Part shown: positions 47,064 to 52,986 of the stretch, piece by piece
How positions within the stretch are numbered: position 1 is the stretch's first letter
How the letters are laid out: each line of letters begins with the position of its first letter
From: Gleimia europaea ACS-120-V-Col10b
Lineage (GTDB): Bacteria > Actinomycetota > Actinomycetes > Actinomycetales > Actinomycetaceae
Assembly (NCBI RefSeq): GCF_000411155.1
Contig: NZ_KE150266.1
Coordinates: forward strand, 1,054,001-1,118,000
Direction: 5' to 3'
Length of the DNA stretch: 64,000 nucleotides
Translations under genes and position numbers: made by a program
Notes under the pieces: generated by a model
The model's database searches: none
What the model saw: the letters and a program-made list of their open reading frames with translations, nothing else
What the model was told of the DNA's origin: nothing

Positions 47064-47143
<80 letters not shown>

Positions 47144-47145
47144 GC

Positions 47146-47188
47146 AAACCGCGGAAACTCAAACCAAAATGAGTGTCCGTGGTTTTTC
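47146..47188 (+). terminator. terminator following tRNA-Pro, inside the island
   Basis: AAACCGCGGAAACTCA (47146-47161) pairs with TGAGTGTCCGTGGTTT (47170-47185) in 15 of 16 positions including one G-T pair, with TTC after it. It would end tRNA transcription at the left end of the inserted island, replacing the original terminator now at 49116. Confidence 0.75.
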
Positions 47189-47222
47189 TAATTTCGGCTT
47201 ATAGGTCATTTCGGGCAACTGA

Positions 47223-48094
47223 TTCTTTAACGGGGATATTTCTTTGGTCATCGAATACCCGAAGGACCAGCCTTCGCGAGATTGCATTAGATACGCTTCT
47301 TGCCGCTTTCCCGGTGGACTTCTTGGTGAACTTTTACCGCAAGCATTTTGGCTGGCGCCCGGGCTGGAGGCTTGGTCGGTGGTGGAACATCCTTGCTTAC
47401 GCAGAAGATCTCCAACAAGCCTATCGACTGGAAGGAGGTAGGAATTGCTGCGACTGTTGGAGCAGTCACCGGCTTTGTTTCTATGGGTGTTTCGAACCTA
47501 ATTGGCGCCAAGATGGCCCAGGCGTCCCCAGCAGCTCAAAAAGCCCTGCTCACGCATGGGAATGTAGACAAGGTGCGTTCGGCTGGGACAGGGCTCTGGT
47601 CCCGGATGAATGGAACGTCAGCAATCCAGCAGGCAGTGAAGTACGAGGCTAAAAATAGCCTCAATATGGCCACAGATAACTTCACAAGGAAACTGCTAGG
47701 CGATATGGCTGGTGAAGTTGTGAGCTCCAATGCAGGATACGCAACAGAAACACTAATAGACGCGAACAAGATTTTCACTGTTGAAGGGTTGGCAACAAGT
47801 AACGCAAAGGGCCTAGTCAATGCGGCTACAAAAGCGCATGCAAGTGCTCTCACGTTTGGCGTCAATCCTATGCCTCTAGATGCGGATACAGCCTCCTTGG
47901 GTGAGAAGTGGGGTCGAGGCATATTCAAGGGTGCTGTTGACACCACGCAACGATCGTTTGTTGATTTTGTTGGTCACAACATTAAGAATGCTACTGAAAA
48001 AGATAGCGTGGATGGGGTCACTATGGGCGTTGACCATTCTGTCAATTTGGCTCAAGGGATCGCGTCAGGCATTAAAGACGGACTTGGAAAATAG
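47223..48094 (+). pseudogene. frameshifted toxin-like protein fragment, C-terminal part intact
   Basis: The open frame from TTG 47348 gives 248 residues: GARAGGLVGGGTSLLTQK, WKEVGIAATVGAVTGFVSMG, and a helix-rich C-terminus. The N-terminal side continues in other frames: LREIALDTLLAAFP in one and GGLLGELLPQAF in another. Joining them by one missing C near 47315 and one missing T in the T-run 47346-47349 gives a smooth glycine-zipper sequence, so at least two frameshifts are inferred. No start with ribosome site exists. Gly-rich zipper segments before a variable C-terminus are common in polymorphic toxins. It begins close behind the tRNA, so the N-terminus is lost. Lower GC than the neighbours. 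Confidence 0.6.
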
Positions 48095-48133
48095 AAGGAA
48101 TTATTCAATGAAAATAGGAGGAATTATTCAATG
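48095..48133 (+). repeat. duplicated ribosome-site/start segment
   Basis: GGAATTATTCAATG occurs twice in tandem, at 48097-48110 and 48120-48133, each with its own purine-rich site. The first ATG (48108) opens a 12-codon ORF ending at TGA across the second ATG; the second starts the PH-like protein gene at 48131. Confidence 0.65.
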
Positions 48134-48835
48134 GTTGAGCCGATGAAGTTTGGGCCGGAACAGAATATATGGTCCCCATACAATAAGAACTTGCCGCTCT
48201 TGTTGCGGAAGATGAGCAAGTACCCCGAAGAAACACGAGTATTTAACCAGGCACCAATTCTACTGGGTGTGGGAATACCCGGAGCACTCCTAATGACCCT
48301 AACAGCACTAATCATGACACCCGCTTACTTCCGCGGTACCAATGATGACCTCGCCTCGGTTATCGCACCAATACTAATGGCACTCTTTATGTACACCCTG
48401 ACGGCTATCGGACTGTTCCGCCGCTACGGTGTAGACCAAGACAAAGTCTGGTCAAAATTCGGCAAGATTTACTATAAGGAAGTCCGCTTCGACGAAATCA
48501 CTGACATCAAACTCAGTGTTACCAACCAGCGCTACAAGTTCTACAAAGGTGACAAGAAAATCAACCTGGACTACACGCGCTTCGACTACACCCTGGCTTT
48601 CATCCGCCTACTAGAAGAACTCCAACACCGCCGCTTCACACTCTACGGAGTATCACCAGATGACCCCAGCTGGGAAGACGAAGCCCAAATGGCCCGAAAT
48701 GACGTAGCCTGGAAGGCCTATGACAACCACCGCAAATACTACAACTCCCACCCCGAAGAACTCGCCAAACTAAACGCGCTAGTCCAACCACCGACAACTG
48801 CTAATACTGCAGCAGAGTCAGAACAGCCAACCTAG
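48131..48835 (+). CDS. membrane protein with PH-like domain, possible immunity protein
   Basis: 234 residues. Two close membrane helices (~45-68 and 76-97) are followed by a PH-like domain: DQDKVWSKFGKIYYKEVRFDEITDIKLSVTNQRYKFYKGDKKINLDYTRFD (~105-155), a strand series, and the helix TLAFIRLLEELQHRRF. The C-terminal ~60 residues are hydrophilic. Such membrane PH-like proteins are found as accessory or immunity-type genes after toxin genes. It follows the toxin-like fragment by 36 bp in the same direction. Immunity is an inference from the pairing only; other functions of bPH proteins are possible. It is in the island with low GC. Confidence 0.55.
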   Translation: MVEPMKFGPEQNIWSPYNKNLPLLLRKMSKYPEETRVFNQAPILLGVGIPGALLMTLTALIMTPAYFRGTNDDLASVIAPILMALFMYTLTAIGLFRRYGVDQDKVWSKFGKIYYKEVRFDEITDIKLSVTNQRYKFYKGDKKINLDYTRFDYTLAFIRLLEELQHRRFTLYGVSPDDPSWEDEAQMARNDVAWKAYDNHRKYYNSHPEELAKLNALVQPPTTANTAAESEQPT

Positions 48836-49067
48836 ACCCGCACCGAACAGCTACTGCCTCACCAGACTCAGAAGAAATCACCCAAACGGGATGCTCACAC
48901 TCACCAACCGACCGATAATTGTGCGTTCGGATGGATGACCCTAACTCTAAATTCTTTCGCTCTCCAGACACTTCCATGTCACCCGACTTCGCGCATCTGA
49001 TTAACTTTGATAAGCTCACGCGGTCCTGAACACTTGGAAGCAAGCGGTTTGGAAACTAGCGAAATCA

Positions 49068-49115
49068 TTCGGGACGAAGAGGTCGTGGGTTCAAATCCCG
49101 CCACCCCGACACACT
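49068..49115. repeat. right attachment-like repeat (attR)
   Basis: Identical over 48 bp to 47096-47143, the tRNA-Pro 3' end from the anticodon loop onward. Here it has no acceptor 5' half and cannot make a tRNA. With the left copy it marks a 1,972-bp insertion. Between 48836 and here I see no other gene. No integrase gene is present. Confidence 0.85.
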
Positions 49116-49322: not shown

Positions 49323-50354
49323 CTACCGGCTAAAACCAGCCTCTTGAACCGTCTTGCCAATGCGGTTTGCAATACGCTGCTTGACCTCATCGGTAGCCGT
49401 ATCACTAATGAGGTTCGGGTTGCCAAAGGCATCCGGGTAAAGCTCAACCTTTAGCGGATTACGCTTCGTCTTCACGATCCACCAGATGTGGTAGACAAAC
49501 AGACCCGCGTTGAACACGAGCGCCAAGAAAGCGATGGTGAACATTGCCGTCGGGTTTTGGCTGTGCTCGTGCGCGAACTGCGTCTCATAGGTAAACCGTG
49601 GGAACGTGAGCACAAACGCAGACCAGAACGTGAGGGTGTAAGCCCGGTACTGGATCCAAGCACCTCGACCCGTCTTCATAAACGCCGGAATGGTACATGC
49701 CGCAAGCAGAGCGACACCCGAATACCACGCGCGATCAGACAGGCAGTTGTACACGTACGCAAAGTTCCACAGGTCGTAGCCAATGATCCACCAAATCGTA
49801 AGGTCAGCCCAAATAATGTGCTTGTCCTTCTTCGAAACGTAGATCCCAACCCAGCCCGCAATCATGATCATGTTCAAAATGCCTGCGATGGCATTCATGA
49901 TGTTCCACGGGCCACCCATAGTCCAGATACCGCTAACCGGATCTGCACCATGAATTCCATAACACTGGAAGTCACGAATCACGGCCTCAAGAATGTTGAC
50001 CGCCAGAATGAACGGCGGAATCAGCAAATAGTAATTGTTACGCCGCAACTTCGGGAAGTACTGCAGCGCCACAAGAGACAGCGAACCGAGGAGGGCGGAG
50101 TATTGCTTAACAATCGCGAACCAGCCTGCACTCTGAGTTCCCTGCGTTGAGTAGGGCCACCAGAAAATGGTTAGCAGTACGGGGATGACAATAAACAAAG
50201 CGATTGCCGCCCACTTGCTACGCACCGCTATCCAAGCCAGGAACGCCAAAGCGGCGATCACAACGGCCAGCATCGCGTAATCCCACCACTCTCCTACTTC
50301 AAAAAAGAAGAGATTGGCTTGCAAAGGTAACACGGTTAGTTTTCCTTTCCCCAT
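49323..50354 (-). CDS. DUF5692-like polytopic membrane protein
   Basis: 343 residues, about nine hydrophobic helices. Trp-rich loops are frequent (EVGEWWDYAML, IWTMGGPWNIMNAIAGILN ~140-160, IIWADLTIWWIIGYDLWNFAYVYN ~180). An extracytoplasmic loop has Cys in RDFQCYGIHGADP. The segment ACTIPAFMKTGRGAWIQYRAYTLTFWSAF (~220-248) is nearly the same in the paralogue at 51622, ACTIPAFTWAKGQWIWFRCFTLVFWISF. The gene overlaps the SRPBCC gene by 19 nt. I recall DUF5692 for such proteins in anaerobic actinobacteria, but have not confirmed it. Function unknown; neither transport nor redox motif can be assigned. Confidence 0.7.
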   Translation of the reverse strand: MGKGKLTVLPLQANLFFFEVGEWWDYAMLAVVIAALAFLAWIAVRSKWAAIALFIVIPVLLTIFWWPYSTQGTQSAGWFAIVKQYSALLGSLSLVALQYFPKLRRNNYYLLIPPFILAVNILEAVIRDFQCYGIHGADPVSGIWTMGGPWNIMNAIAGILNMIMIAGWVGIYVSKKDKHIIWADLTIWWIIGYDLWNFAYVYNCLSDRAWYSGVALLAACTIPAFMKTGRGAWIQYRAYTLTFWSAFVLTFPRFTYETQFAHEHSQNPTAMFTIAFLALVFNAGLFVYHIWWIVKTKRNPLKVELYPDAFGNPNLISDTATDEVKQRIANRIGKTVQEAGFSR

Positions 50355-51379
50355 CCGGGAAGGTACGTCTTCTCCATCTTCTGGCGAATCTGCTCGTCCC
50401 AGCTGAAATCCGGCTCGGACCAGCCGTCGAAGTATTCCTTATCAACGCGGTCCGCCCACGGCGAATCCGGGCCCGTTGGAGGCCAATCCGGATTGTCGGT
50501 AACCGGGGGCCTGATCTCCGCAACCGCGGGGGCCTGCCTGCCGTAACGGAACCACTGGGTTTGCGTGTCCTCAAACAGCGGGGTGCCAGACCAGCGGCTT
50601 GCGGGAGTTCCTGACTTGAAGAACTCGCCTCCCAAAACGCCGCGCATGAACTTCGAGTGCCACTGTTCCTTCTTACGGAACTCAGCAACGCGCTTCACGT
50701 AAATATTCTGCATGTGCGCCATCACGCCGCCGATCAGCTCAATGTTGATCCAGTTGATCGCGTTGTTCCACAGGTTGTCGTCCTCAAAACCAATGCGCCA
50801 GTGGTTGATGAGGCGGGTGCGCTCGCCCTCCAGTGGAACCACATAGAAGCACCAAGCCGCCGCATAATGTTTCATGCCCGGGTAGCGGAACGCGTACGAG
50901 CCGGGAGCAGCTGGCGGATTCTTAGTGTCAACCCACTGCACCAGGTACTTGCCCGGAACCACGTCTGCCCACTCCATTGACATGCCGTGGTAGTCAAACG
51001 CCGCAATATCGCCTGGAGCAATAGCGTCAGCGTTTTGGAACTCTTCCTGAATCTCGTACTGGTTGAAGAACGGTAGCCGCGCAAACGCTCTTTCTAGGAA
51101 CTCTGAAGAGTACGAGCCTGCCTTCTGTGCGCCAATCTGCTTGAAAATGCGGTACACGGCGTAGGCCGGCGCATCAATGTCGATCGCATAAGTCGACGAG
51201 CGCCCGTTGGTGTAGTTCGCATCGATAATGTCATCAGCGGGATACACCCACTCTTGTTCCGCTTTTGTCGCCTTACCGCTGAACTGGGAGAAGTAAACCA
51301 TTCCTCCCAATGTTGCGGCGCCGGCAACGCCGGCAGCTTTTAATAACTTCTTCGTCCTTGAAGAGGCCAAATTAATCAC
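50336..51379 (-). CDS. membrane-anchored SRPBCC/START-like protein
   Basis: 347 residues. An N-terminal helix (LLKAAGVAGAATLGGMVYFS, ~12-31) acts as an anchor or uncleaved signal. Residues ~50-240 look like a START/SRPBCC fold, a helix-grip sheet around a hydrophobic pocket: YAIDIDAPAYAVYRIFKQIG (~60), AWCFYVVPLEGERTRLINHWRIGF (~170-195), followed by a long helix NNAINWINIELIGGVMAHMQ. The rest (~250-347) is a Trp/Pro-rich tail (DNPDWPPTGPDSPWADR). This implies binding of a hydrophobic ligand at the outer face. It is first of an operon with the DUF5692-like membrane protein. A Crp-like site lies 70 bp upstream. Ligand unknown. Confidence 0.68.
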   Translation of the reverse strand: MINLASSRTKKLLKAAGVAGAATLGGMVYFSQFSGKATKAEQEWVYPADDIIDANYTNGRSSTYAIDIDAPAYAVYRIFKQIGAQKAGSYSSEFLERAFARLPFFNQYEIQEEFQNADAIAPGDIAAFDYHGMSMEWADVVPGKYLVQWVDTKNPPAAPGSYAFRYPGMKHYAAAWCFYVVPLEGERTRLINHWRIGFEDDNLWNNAINWINIELIGGVMAHMQNIYVKRVAEFRKKEQWHSKFMRGVLGGEFFKSGTPASRWSGTPLFEDTQTQWFRYGRQAPAVAEIRPPVTDNPDWPPTGPDSPWADRVDKEYFDGWSEPDFSWDEQIRQKMEKTYLPGWGKEN

Positions 51380-51448
51380 CTGCTATTTACTGTGTAAACT
51401 TCGACAAAATTTGTGCCAAAGATTTGATGGGTCGTATTACAAATTAAC

Positions 51449-51464
51449 ATTGAGCTAAGTCACA
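51449..51464 (-). promoter_or_regulatory. candidate Crp/GlxR site upstream of the SRPBCC-DUF5692 operon
   Basis: Minus strand TGTGACTTAGCTCAAT fits the GlxR consensus TGTGANNTANNTCACA at 10 of 12 defined positions. It is 70 bp from the SRPBCC start at 51379. The Crp-type regulator encoded at 42276 could act here. Confidence 0.5.
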
Positions 51465-51509
51465 AAACCTCAATACCAACTGCAATTTTGTCCAGCTTCA
51501 CGCGGCTCT

Positions 51510-51532
51510 ATTGAACAAATTTTGAGTTCAAT
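51510..51532. promoter_or_regulatory. inverted repeat in the DUF5692 divergent region
   Basis: ATTGAAC and GTTCAAT, perfect 7-bp arms, with AAATTTTGA between them. Located midway between the divergent starts (51379 and 51622). Confidence 0.45.
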
Positions 51533-51577
51533 ATTTACGACTGTCTCAGCGATAAACTTTGAGTGGATTTTACTTAT

Positions 51578-51591
51578 GTGATCCAAATCAT
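51578..51591 (+). promoter_or_regulatory. FNR-like palindrome before the second DUF5692 gene
   Basis: GTGATCCAAATCAT has a perfect TGAT-N4-ATCA core, 8 of 10 bases of the FNR box TTGAT-N4-ATCAA. It lies 31-44 bp before the start at 51622. Confidence 0.4.
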
Positions 51592-51621
51592 CCCAACACA
51601 GTTATTAAGAAAGTCAGAAAG

Positions 51622-52986
51622 ATGGATTCCCTATTCTTATGGGAGGTCGGACCTCTTCGCGTCTGGATCATCTGGATAGTAGTTTTTGTCGCGCAAATCG
51701 CCATTGCCGAAATAAACAGGCGATGGAACTGGACAATTTTTGCGCTGTGGACAGTAGGGGGCGTCCTTATGATGCCCTACGCCGCAATCGTTGGTGAACC
51801 CGTTTTTGGCTGGTTCCCATTTGGCAAATACGTCCTCATGGTCCTCACCGCAACCATGACAGGCACGCTGCTGGTCATAGGCAAACGAAACCCTGAACTA
51901 GCACGCAGATACGCCATTTGGTTTGGTGTGGCCCTGTGGATCGGCCTTGTTTTCAACATCATGGAAGCAAACATCCGCGACGTCGTGATCTACTTCCAAG
52001 CAGACACCTACTACCAGTGCGCAGCGGACTGGCAATGTTTGAAGGGTATTAACGACACCCACGCGGCAGACATGCTGGCCGGGCTACCCGAGGCGCGCGG
52101 AGTCACCGAACCCCTCCACTCGGACGCCTGGTACCAGGCTCTTGCCGCTAACTTCGCAACCGGCCACGTAGGCATCGACCCCGCAACCGGCTTCCGCACC
52201 ATCGGTGGATACTGGAACCTGATGAGCGCCGCCGCCGGCCTCCTTAACTGCATCACCGTAACCGGCCTGGGCAAGATCATCGTCTCTTCCAGGGGTAAAC
52301 AGAAGGTTCAAGGCCTGCTCTGGGTTGATCAGGTGTGGCCCTGGATCATCGCCTACGACCTGTGGAACCACGCCTTCTTGTACAACGCCCTGGCAGACTA
52401 CACGTGGTACTGCACGCTAGCGCTACTGTTGGCCTGTACGATCCCGGCATTCACATGGGCTAAGGGGCAATGGATCTGGTTCCGATGCTTCACGCTGGTG
52501 TTCTGGATCAGCTTCTACAACTGGTTCCCCTACTTATCAACGCCACCAGGAGCGATGCACAACTTCGCAACCATGGATCCGAATGCGAACATTTTCAGCT
52601 CCGGCTTGGCACTCGCTTTCAACATTGGCGTATTCATCTACTGGCTCTACAAGGTGGTCAAGCACCGTCGCAACCCGATCACCAACGCACTGTTCTTTGA
52701 GATGGGTGCTTTCCGGAACCTCGTTAAGGAACACTGCGACGACAAGGACAAGTACTTCCTGACCGACATGATCCCCGAAACCCCGCGTGAACTTGGATTT
52801 GAACCCGAATCCGACACGCCTCCGGTTGACGGCTACGTAAGCTACATGCCGTGGTGGAACAAGGTAGACAAGCGTTGGCCGAAGCTACGCACACCGCTTT
52901 CCGCTGACCCGAAGCTTGTTGAAAAGGGCATCAAGTCCGACCCCCAGTGGGACGTAAAGCCAAGCGACAAACAAGCTGACCAGTAA
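51622..52986 (+). CDS. second DUF5692-like polytopic membrane protein
   Basis: 454 residues from ATG 51622 (AGTCAGAAAG before it); a TTG at 51559 would extend the protein but lacks a site. About nine helices follow the pattern of the paralogue at 49323, with the shared block WPWIIAYDLWNHAFLYNALADYTWYCTLALLLACTIPAF (~255-295). It differs by a long extracytoplasmic insert (~125-190: a CAADWQCLKG Cys pair, then NDTHAADMLAGLPEARG) and a 100-residue cytoplasmic Pro-rich tail. Divergent from the SRPBCC-DUF5692 operon, sharing a 242-bp control region. Together they make a probable three-gene system; no enzyme is encoded. Function unknown. Confidence 0.68.
   Translation: MDSLFLWEVGPLRVWIIWIVVFVAQIAIAEINRRWNWTIFALWTVGGVLMMPYAAIVGEPVFGWFPFGKYVLMVLTATMTGTLLVIGKRNPELARRYAIWFGVALWIGLVFNIMEANIRDVVIYFQADTYYQCAADWQCLKGINDTHAADMLAGLPEARGVTEPLHSDAWYQALAANFATGHVGIDPATGFRTIGGYWNLMSAAAGLLNCITVTGLGKIIVSSRGKQKVQGLLWVDQVWPWIIAYDLWNHAFLYNALADYTWYCTLALLLACTIPAFTWAKGQWIWFRCFTLVFWISFYNWFPYLSTPPGAMHNFATMDPNANIFSSGLALAFNIGVFIYWLYKVVKHRRNPITNALFFEMGAFRNLVKEHCDDKDKYFLTDMIPETPRELGFEPESDTPPVDGYVSYMPWWNKVDKRWPKLRTPLSADPKLVEKGIKSDPQWDVKPSDKQADQ

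Follow-up and report, generated by a model that had tools for sequence, protein, structure and literature searches.

Three genes, here called A, S and B, lie side by side on contig NZ_KE150266.1 of Gleimia europaea ACS-120-V-Col10b, within a stretch of 64,000 nucleotides (positions 1,054,001 to 1,118,000 of the forward strand) that we refer to as the window and from whose first letter coordinates are counted. Gene A (49323..50354, minus strand) encodes a polytopic membrane protein of 343 amino acids (aa) that belongs to DUF5692 (PF18948; E = 2.7e-113, 378.6 bits), a widespread and already known family that has no assigned function (3616 of 7998 scored candidates match its profile). Gene S (50336..51379, minus strand) encodes a protein of 347 aa with an N-terminal hydrophobic helix followed by a domain predicted to have the SRPBCC (START-like) fold. 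Gene B (51622..52986, plus strand) encodes a divergent, long-branch paralogue of A with 454 aa (PF18948; E = 2.5e-54, 184.9 bits); both A and B exceed the curated Pfam cut-off of 27 bits by which membership was defined. Genes A and S share a strand and overlap by 19 base pairs (bp) at the 3′ end of S, and S and B diverge from a spacer of 242 bp (51380..51621). For S the start is a GTG at 51379, the alternative being a TTG three codons inward, and for B the ATG at 51622 was adopted, the mechanical open reading frame (ORF) beginning at 51559. All three are real genes, and the S protein of the window is 99% identical to copies in records of Gleimia europaea and 'Actinomyces urinae'. A preliminary description, made from the letters of the window, had seen here two paralogous DUF5692 membrane proteins and an anchored START-like protein arranged divergently around 242 bp; the profile matches and the coordinates bear out the paralogues and the arrangement.

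Co-occurrence of A, S and B

The preliminary description had staked its proposal on the three genes being found together elsewhere, and they are. A search of genome contigs placed A and B at all 12 S loci compared, of which L003, L005 and L011 are shorter than the remaining nine and L003 ends at a contig boundary that cuts B. We also counted matches in a sample of 151 genomes from the family to which Mobiluncus curtisii (G003) belongs, taken to be Actinomycetaceae. Among the matches listed, a strong S match is present in 44 of these genomes and a B-type DUF5692 in the same 44, so that no genome has a strong match to S without B or to B without S. S matches at E ≤ 0.001 extend to 62 genomes, 18 of which are weak or distant (E 1.4e-35 to 1.9e-5) and were not counted; DUF5692 occurs in 63 genomes among the matches listed, of which the fragment-only G104 was set aside; short N-terminal pieces of B were not counted separately.

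The arrangement is also kept. Among the matches listed, all 51 S loci have B upstream of S, 50 of them in divergent orientation, and in 50 A lies within 12 kilobases (kb) of S. In 37 loci A comes after S, no more than 400 bp away and on the same strand, and in 13 it is turned or moved; the one locus without a full A match has a fragmented A and a stop in S. Besides A/B and S, no gene family is common to more than 4 of the 12 compared loci (ORFs of at least 90 aa, simple calling). Because the 44 genomes coincide, the position of B is kept and the outer genes differ, we conclude that A, S and B are one unit that travels together between genomes.

A sample of 347 genomes of the order gave strong S matches in 15, all of them already within the family sample, plus one distant match. 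Named S homologues occur in Corynebacterium, Trueperella, Arcanobacterium, Schaalia and Boudabousia, and Austwickia has one locus with the full set of A, S and B. Two irregular loci were met within the family: in G060 a second copy of the triad (L077) looks decayed, with a stop in S, fragments of A and a shortened B, and the other copy matches over its own length; in Mobiluncus mulieris (G006, L073) an extra A/B pair lies without an adjoining S, and the end of its B is shortened.

Sequence features and predicted structures of the proteins

In its AlphaFold model (predicted local distance difference test score 87.9) the A protein folds as a bundle of about eight helices of membrane length. A tree of 27 sequences sets A and the long-branched B each apart with support of 100. 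B also carries an insertion of its own (51982..52161, plus strand; about residues 121–180 in the alignments), in which C133 and C139 occur in every one of the 11 B sequences aligned and could form a disulfide, on what may be the outer face of the membrane. Across A, B and 12 diverse ordinary DUF5692 proteins (14 family members), 39 columns are invariant, and several of these are polar positions inside predicted helices. A further alignment of the family (A4) took in 34 of 240 listed DUF5692 proteins together with those of the window.

S found no Pfam or NCBIfam match and no match among PDB sequences at E ≤ 1. Its predicted structure consists of an N-terminal helix (residues 8–33; 51281..51358, minus strand) and a helix-grip domain (about residues 58–235; 50675..51208, minus strand) that matches SRPBCC proteins of known structure (Foldseek, VIA). 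On this predicted fold S belongs to the SRPBCC/START-like superfamily, as the preliminary description had proposed, and it shares the helix-grip architecture of PYR/PYL, the ZhuI aromatase/cyclase, CoxG-like proteins and Bet v 1. It differs from that superfamily in its N-terminal hydrophobic helix, in a C-terminal tail, conserved and about 110 residues long, and in having no Pfam family match at the threshold given. A distant homologue, P0331, reaches Polyketide_cyc2 at E 0.006, below the cut-off, and one source labels relatives of S 'SRPBCC family protein'. Of 89 S homologues, 29 were aligned together with the sequences of the window, L009 and L010; P0082, P0085 and P0089 of alignment A1 were omitted. 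Judged from the model, S is probably membrane-anchored, and because positive residues precede the helix the domain would lie outside. The modelled domain has the look of a hydrophobic-ligand fold.

The spacer between S and B

The 242-bp spacer had been credited with a Crp-like site, an inverted repeat and an FNR-like palindrome, together suggesting shared control. Its best match to TGTGA-N6-TCACA is 8 of 10, a score reached by 12% of 300 shuffles of the same bases; the best matches to TTGAT-N4-ATCAA (8 of 10) and TTGA-N6-TCAA (7 of 8) are reached by 28% and 21% of shuffles, respectively. In the close strain L001 the TTGAAC...GTTCAA repeat is not intact; of 13 spacers compared, only those of the window and L001–L003 have TGTGATCCAAATCAT, with one base changed in each of L001 and L002. 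Because these sites score as shuffled sequence does and are not retained outside the closest strains, we dropped the claim of shared Crp/FNR control; we found no regulatory site in the spacer that stands above chance.

Neighbours of S and DUF5692 homologues

A neighbour that bears on the ligand of S is found at locus L074. Its S homologue, which has the tail motif, shares 32% identity with S over 273 columns (BLAST 5e-34) and is full-length, with two profile segments spanning positions 13–344. It stands directly upstream, on the same strand, of a gene whose product aligns with PDB 2b9w-2bac over 422 residues (E 2.8e-141). The depositors named that entry 'putative aminooxidase'; we take it to be the polyunsaturated fatty acid isomerase (PAI) of Propionibacterium acnes, a close homologue of which would directly adjoin the S homologue. 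The earlier suggestion that S binds a hydrophobic ligand gains some support from this one locus, in which the gene after the S homologue encodes a relative of a polyunsaturated fatty acid (PUFA) isomerase. PAI itself is an unlike enzyme: it is an amine-oxidase-type flavoprotein, whereas A and B have no recognised flavin domain, and PMC12254105 describes it as soluble, whereas A and B are membrane proteins.

For DUF5692 we compared 47 regions around ordinary members, which were hand-chosen from matches in the phylum, order and family rather than drawn at random and which include near-identical pairs (L033/L034) and, for some genomes, two regions; neighbours were matched by tblastn at E ≤ 1e-4. 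A TetR gene is present in 36 of the 47, mostly adjoining. Five regions hold both HypA and an oxidoreductase of about 930 aa with Pyr_redox_2 and Fer4_20 domains, which we label IsrA-like by its size, domains and context and not by comparison with the IsrA sequence. This setting recalls the neighbourhoods of isoprene reductase (IsrA) homologues, for which PMC10134865 describes the arrangement with HypA and gives DUF5692 a co-occurrence of 0.4 with 988 homologues. A and B are members of the same family by profile, and some ordinary members adjoin IsrA-like and Hyp genes; the triad differs from these neighbourhoods in its two divergent paralogues and its SRPBCC protein. HypA is absent from genome G001 and is found elsewhere in 7 of 12 genomes searched.

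On the Subdoligranulum variabile plasmid OY725877.1 (L111:4121-9032), four genes run in a row on a single strand, possibly as a mobile diene-reduction operon: those for a GTPase of HypB type (PF02492), for an IsrA-like protein (68% to that of L044), for HypA and for DUF5692. The plasmid is typed as mobilizable.

Other flavoproteins and an oleate hydratase occur beside DUF5692 as well. FAD_binding_2 and FMN_bind proteins of exported type directly adjoin it in 5 of the 47 regions (L052:3694-7949, and also L046, L048, L050 and L051), four of them with cytochrome c. In G078 TetR and DUF5692 adjoin an oleate hydratase (PF06100 at 549 bits; NCBIfam equivalog at 630.8 bits); the enzyme is above the cut-off in 8 of 39 genomes searched and is beside DUF5692 only in this one. 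PMC10134865 also reports, beside the A. woodii and A. fimetarium homologues, an oleate hydratase flanked by TetR and a hypothetical protein, and that hypothetical protein may well be DUF5692.

By protein names, Propionibacterium freudenreichii and Acidipropionibacterium acidipropionici carry DUF5692, and PMC12254105 lists P. freudenreichii and P. acidipropionici as producers of c9,t11-conjugated linoleic acid (CLA). Latilactobacillus curvatus has DUF5692 on a plasmid, and another strain of this species forms conjugated linolenate, ascribed to 'LAI' in PMC13365329. The linoleate isomerase of Butyrivibrio and others (EC 5.2.1.5) is membrane-bound, as A and B are, and its step of biohydrogenation is known from enzyme work of the 1960s, according to PMC12254105. 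In bifidobacteria, loss of the gene bbi took CLA formation from 92.25% to 0%, and bbi in L. plantarum ST-III gave 78.64% conversion, as stated in PMC11812354. Phosphoketolase was found in 8 of 12 genomes searched, among them all seven picked as possible bifidobacteria. Of the seven, two were set against the PDB: the enzyme of G679, a genome that carries DUF5692 and gave no TetR match, is near-identical to 8io6/3ai7 (1924.9 bits), presumably from B. longum, and the enzyme of G716 matches less closely, at 1549.6 bits.

Proposed function and alternatives

We propose, with a probability of about 0.42, that in Actinomycetaceae and a number of other Actinomycetes A, S and B work together as one module on the outer face of the cytoplasmic membrane, where they would deal with free unsaturated fatty acids or hydrophobic alkenes of a similar kind. 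Starting from the gene set, its linkage and the folds of S and A, we infer the ligand class, the orientation of S, the hand-over and the chemistry of A and B as follows. S, tethered by its N-terminal helix, would stand outside the membrane and bind a free fatty acid in the cavity of its SRPBCC domain; it would then hand the fatty acid to the A/B membrane pair, which may isomerise or translocate it. A membrane-damaging compound would thereby be removed, with detoxification as the likely benefit. The neighbours of DUF5692 and S seem to share one theme, the C=C bonds of hydrophobic substrates.

Several observations weigh against this proposal. The triad loci have none of the linked genes that hint at a function for ordinary DUF5692: the same queries gave 0 of 12 for TetR, for HypA and for an IsrA-like oxidoreductase. 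The inference therefore runs only through the homology of A, B and S, and our probability is set accordingly. The key links to function come from single cases: PAI is present in 1 of the 151 family genomes, its pairing with S is a single locus, and no S homologue was found near three distant PAI-like proteins in 374 genomes of the class. Among the conserved positions of the family, A has no Glu in the NExxRR motif and B no Cys in YNC. The presence of DUF5692 in named CLA producers is only suggestive of a link to isomerisation, since the family also occurs in Microbacterium, Nocardioides and Cellulomonas, genera that are not known to be CLA producers.

The most serious alternative, though in our judgement an unlikely one, is that the module exports or takes up some other hydrophobic compound, such as a terpenoid, a drug, a bile-type compound or a plant phenolic, with S as an outer binding protein and A/B as a two-subunit transporter. 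A is polytopic, the frequent TetR genes fit inducible efflux equally well, and three of these TetR proteins score below the cut-off of every NCBIfam family. Against transport, a Pfam profile search shows no energy-coupling domain in A, B or S, the model of A has no Foldseek match at E ≤ 0.001, and where the substrate of a neighbour is known, the bond acted on is a C=C bond of a fatty acid or diene. It is improbable that DUF5692 is instead a redox or assembly partner of reductases, for example a quinone- or flavin-linked membrane subunit, the triad working with an unlinked reductase. The FAD_binding_2/FMN_bind and IsrA-like neighbours, each in 5 of the 47 regions, would suit such a role, but in 37 of the 47 ordinary regions and 12 of the 12 triad loci our queries turned up no close relative of these reductases. 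They gave two distant FAD matches in L047, and other flavoproteins occur, for example in L045.

A part in building the cell envelope, for instance in making a lipid or polyprenoid of these Actinomycetes, is decidedly improbable: SRPBCC proteins of known structure do include ligand-binding and aromatase/cyclase members, and S is found in several Actinomycetes including Corynebacterium, but its distribution is patchy (44 of 151 family genomes) and neighbour families are common to at most 4 of 12 loci. Shared inheritance in one family without joint function, which would fit the origin of most loci in one bacterial family and the nesting of all 15 strong-S genomes of the order sample within the family sample, is hardly credible, as the surrounding genes differ, A has turned or moved where B has stayed upstream of S, and the set reaches Austwickia and S reaches Corynebacterium.

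The proposal that the module handles unsaturated fatty acids can be narrowed, at a cost in likelihood that makes the result rather doubtful. The membrane-bound linoleate delta12-cis,delta11-trans isomerase would then belong to DUF5692, which would make conjugated dienoic fatty acids in the membrane; IsrA-like enzymes would hydrogenate these when co-operonic, and the triad would be an extended version in which an outward SRPBCC protein feeds free PUFA to a two-paralogue enzyme. We know of no gene identified for the membrane-bound isomerase of Butyrivibrio. Should unsaturated fatty acids be the substrates of DUF5692, the family could provide the gene behind this biohydrogenation step, the DUF5692 neighbour of IsrA-type oxidoreductases would be explained, and linoleate handling by gut, dairy and urogenital Actinomycetes would become directly testable. 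If BBI were a DUF5692 protein, what ordinary members catalyse would already be in the literature. In the open-licence papers searched we met DUF5692 by name only as a neighbour of isoprene-reductase homologues, in PMC10134865, and did not meet the three-gene unit or its links to enzymes of unsaturated fatty acids.

Other features of the window

The 3′ end of a tRNA-Pro gene (47064-47138) is repeated directly over 51 bp, with 98% identity, at 49065-49115. The roughly 2 kb between the repeats, in which the two larger ORFs tested have no convincing Pfam match, probably represent a small tRNA-borne genomic island (47093-49115). Inside it, two adjoining 23-bp copies (96% identical; 48087-48132) reach the start of an ORF at 48131.

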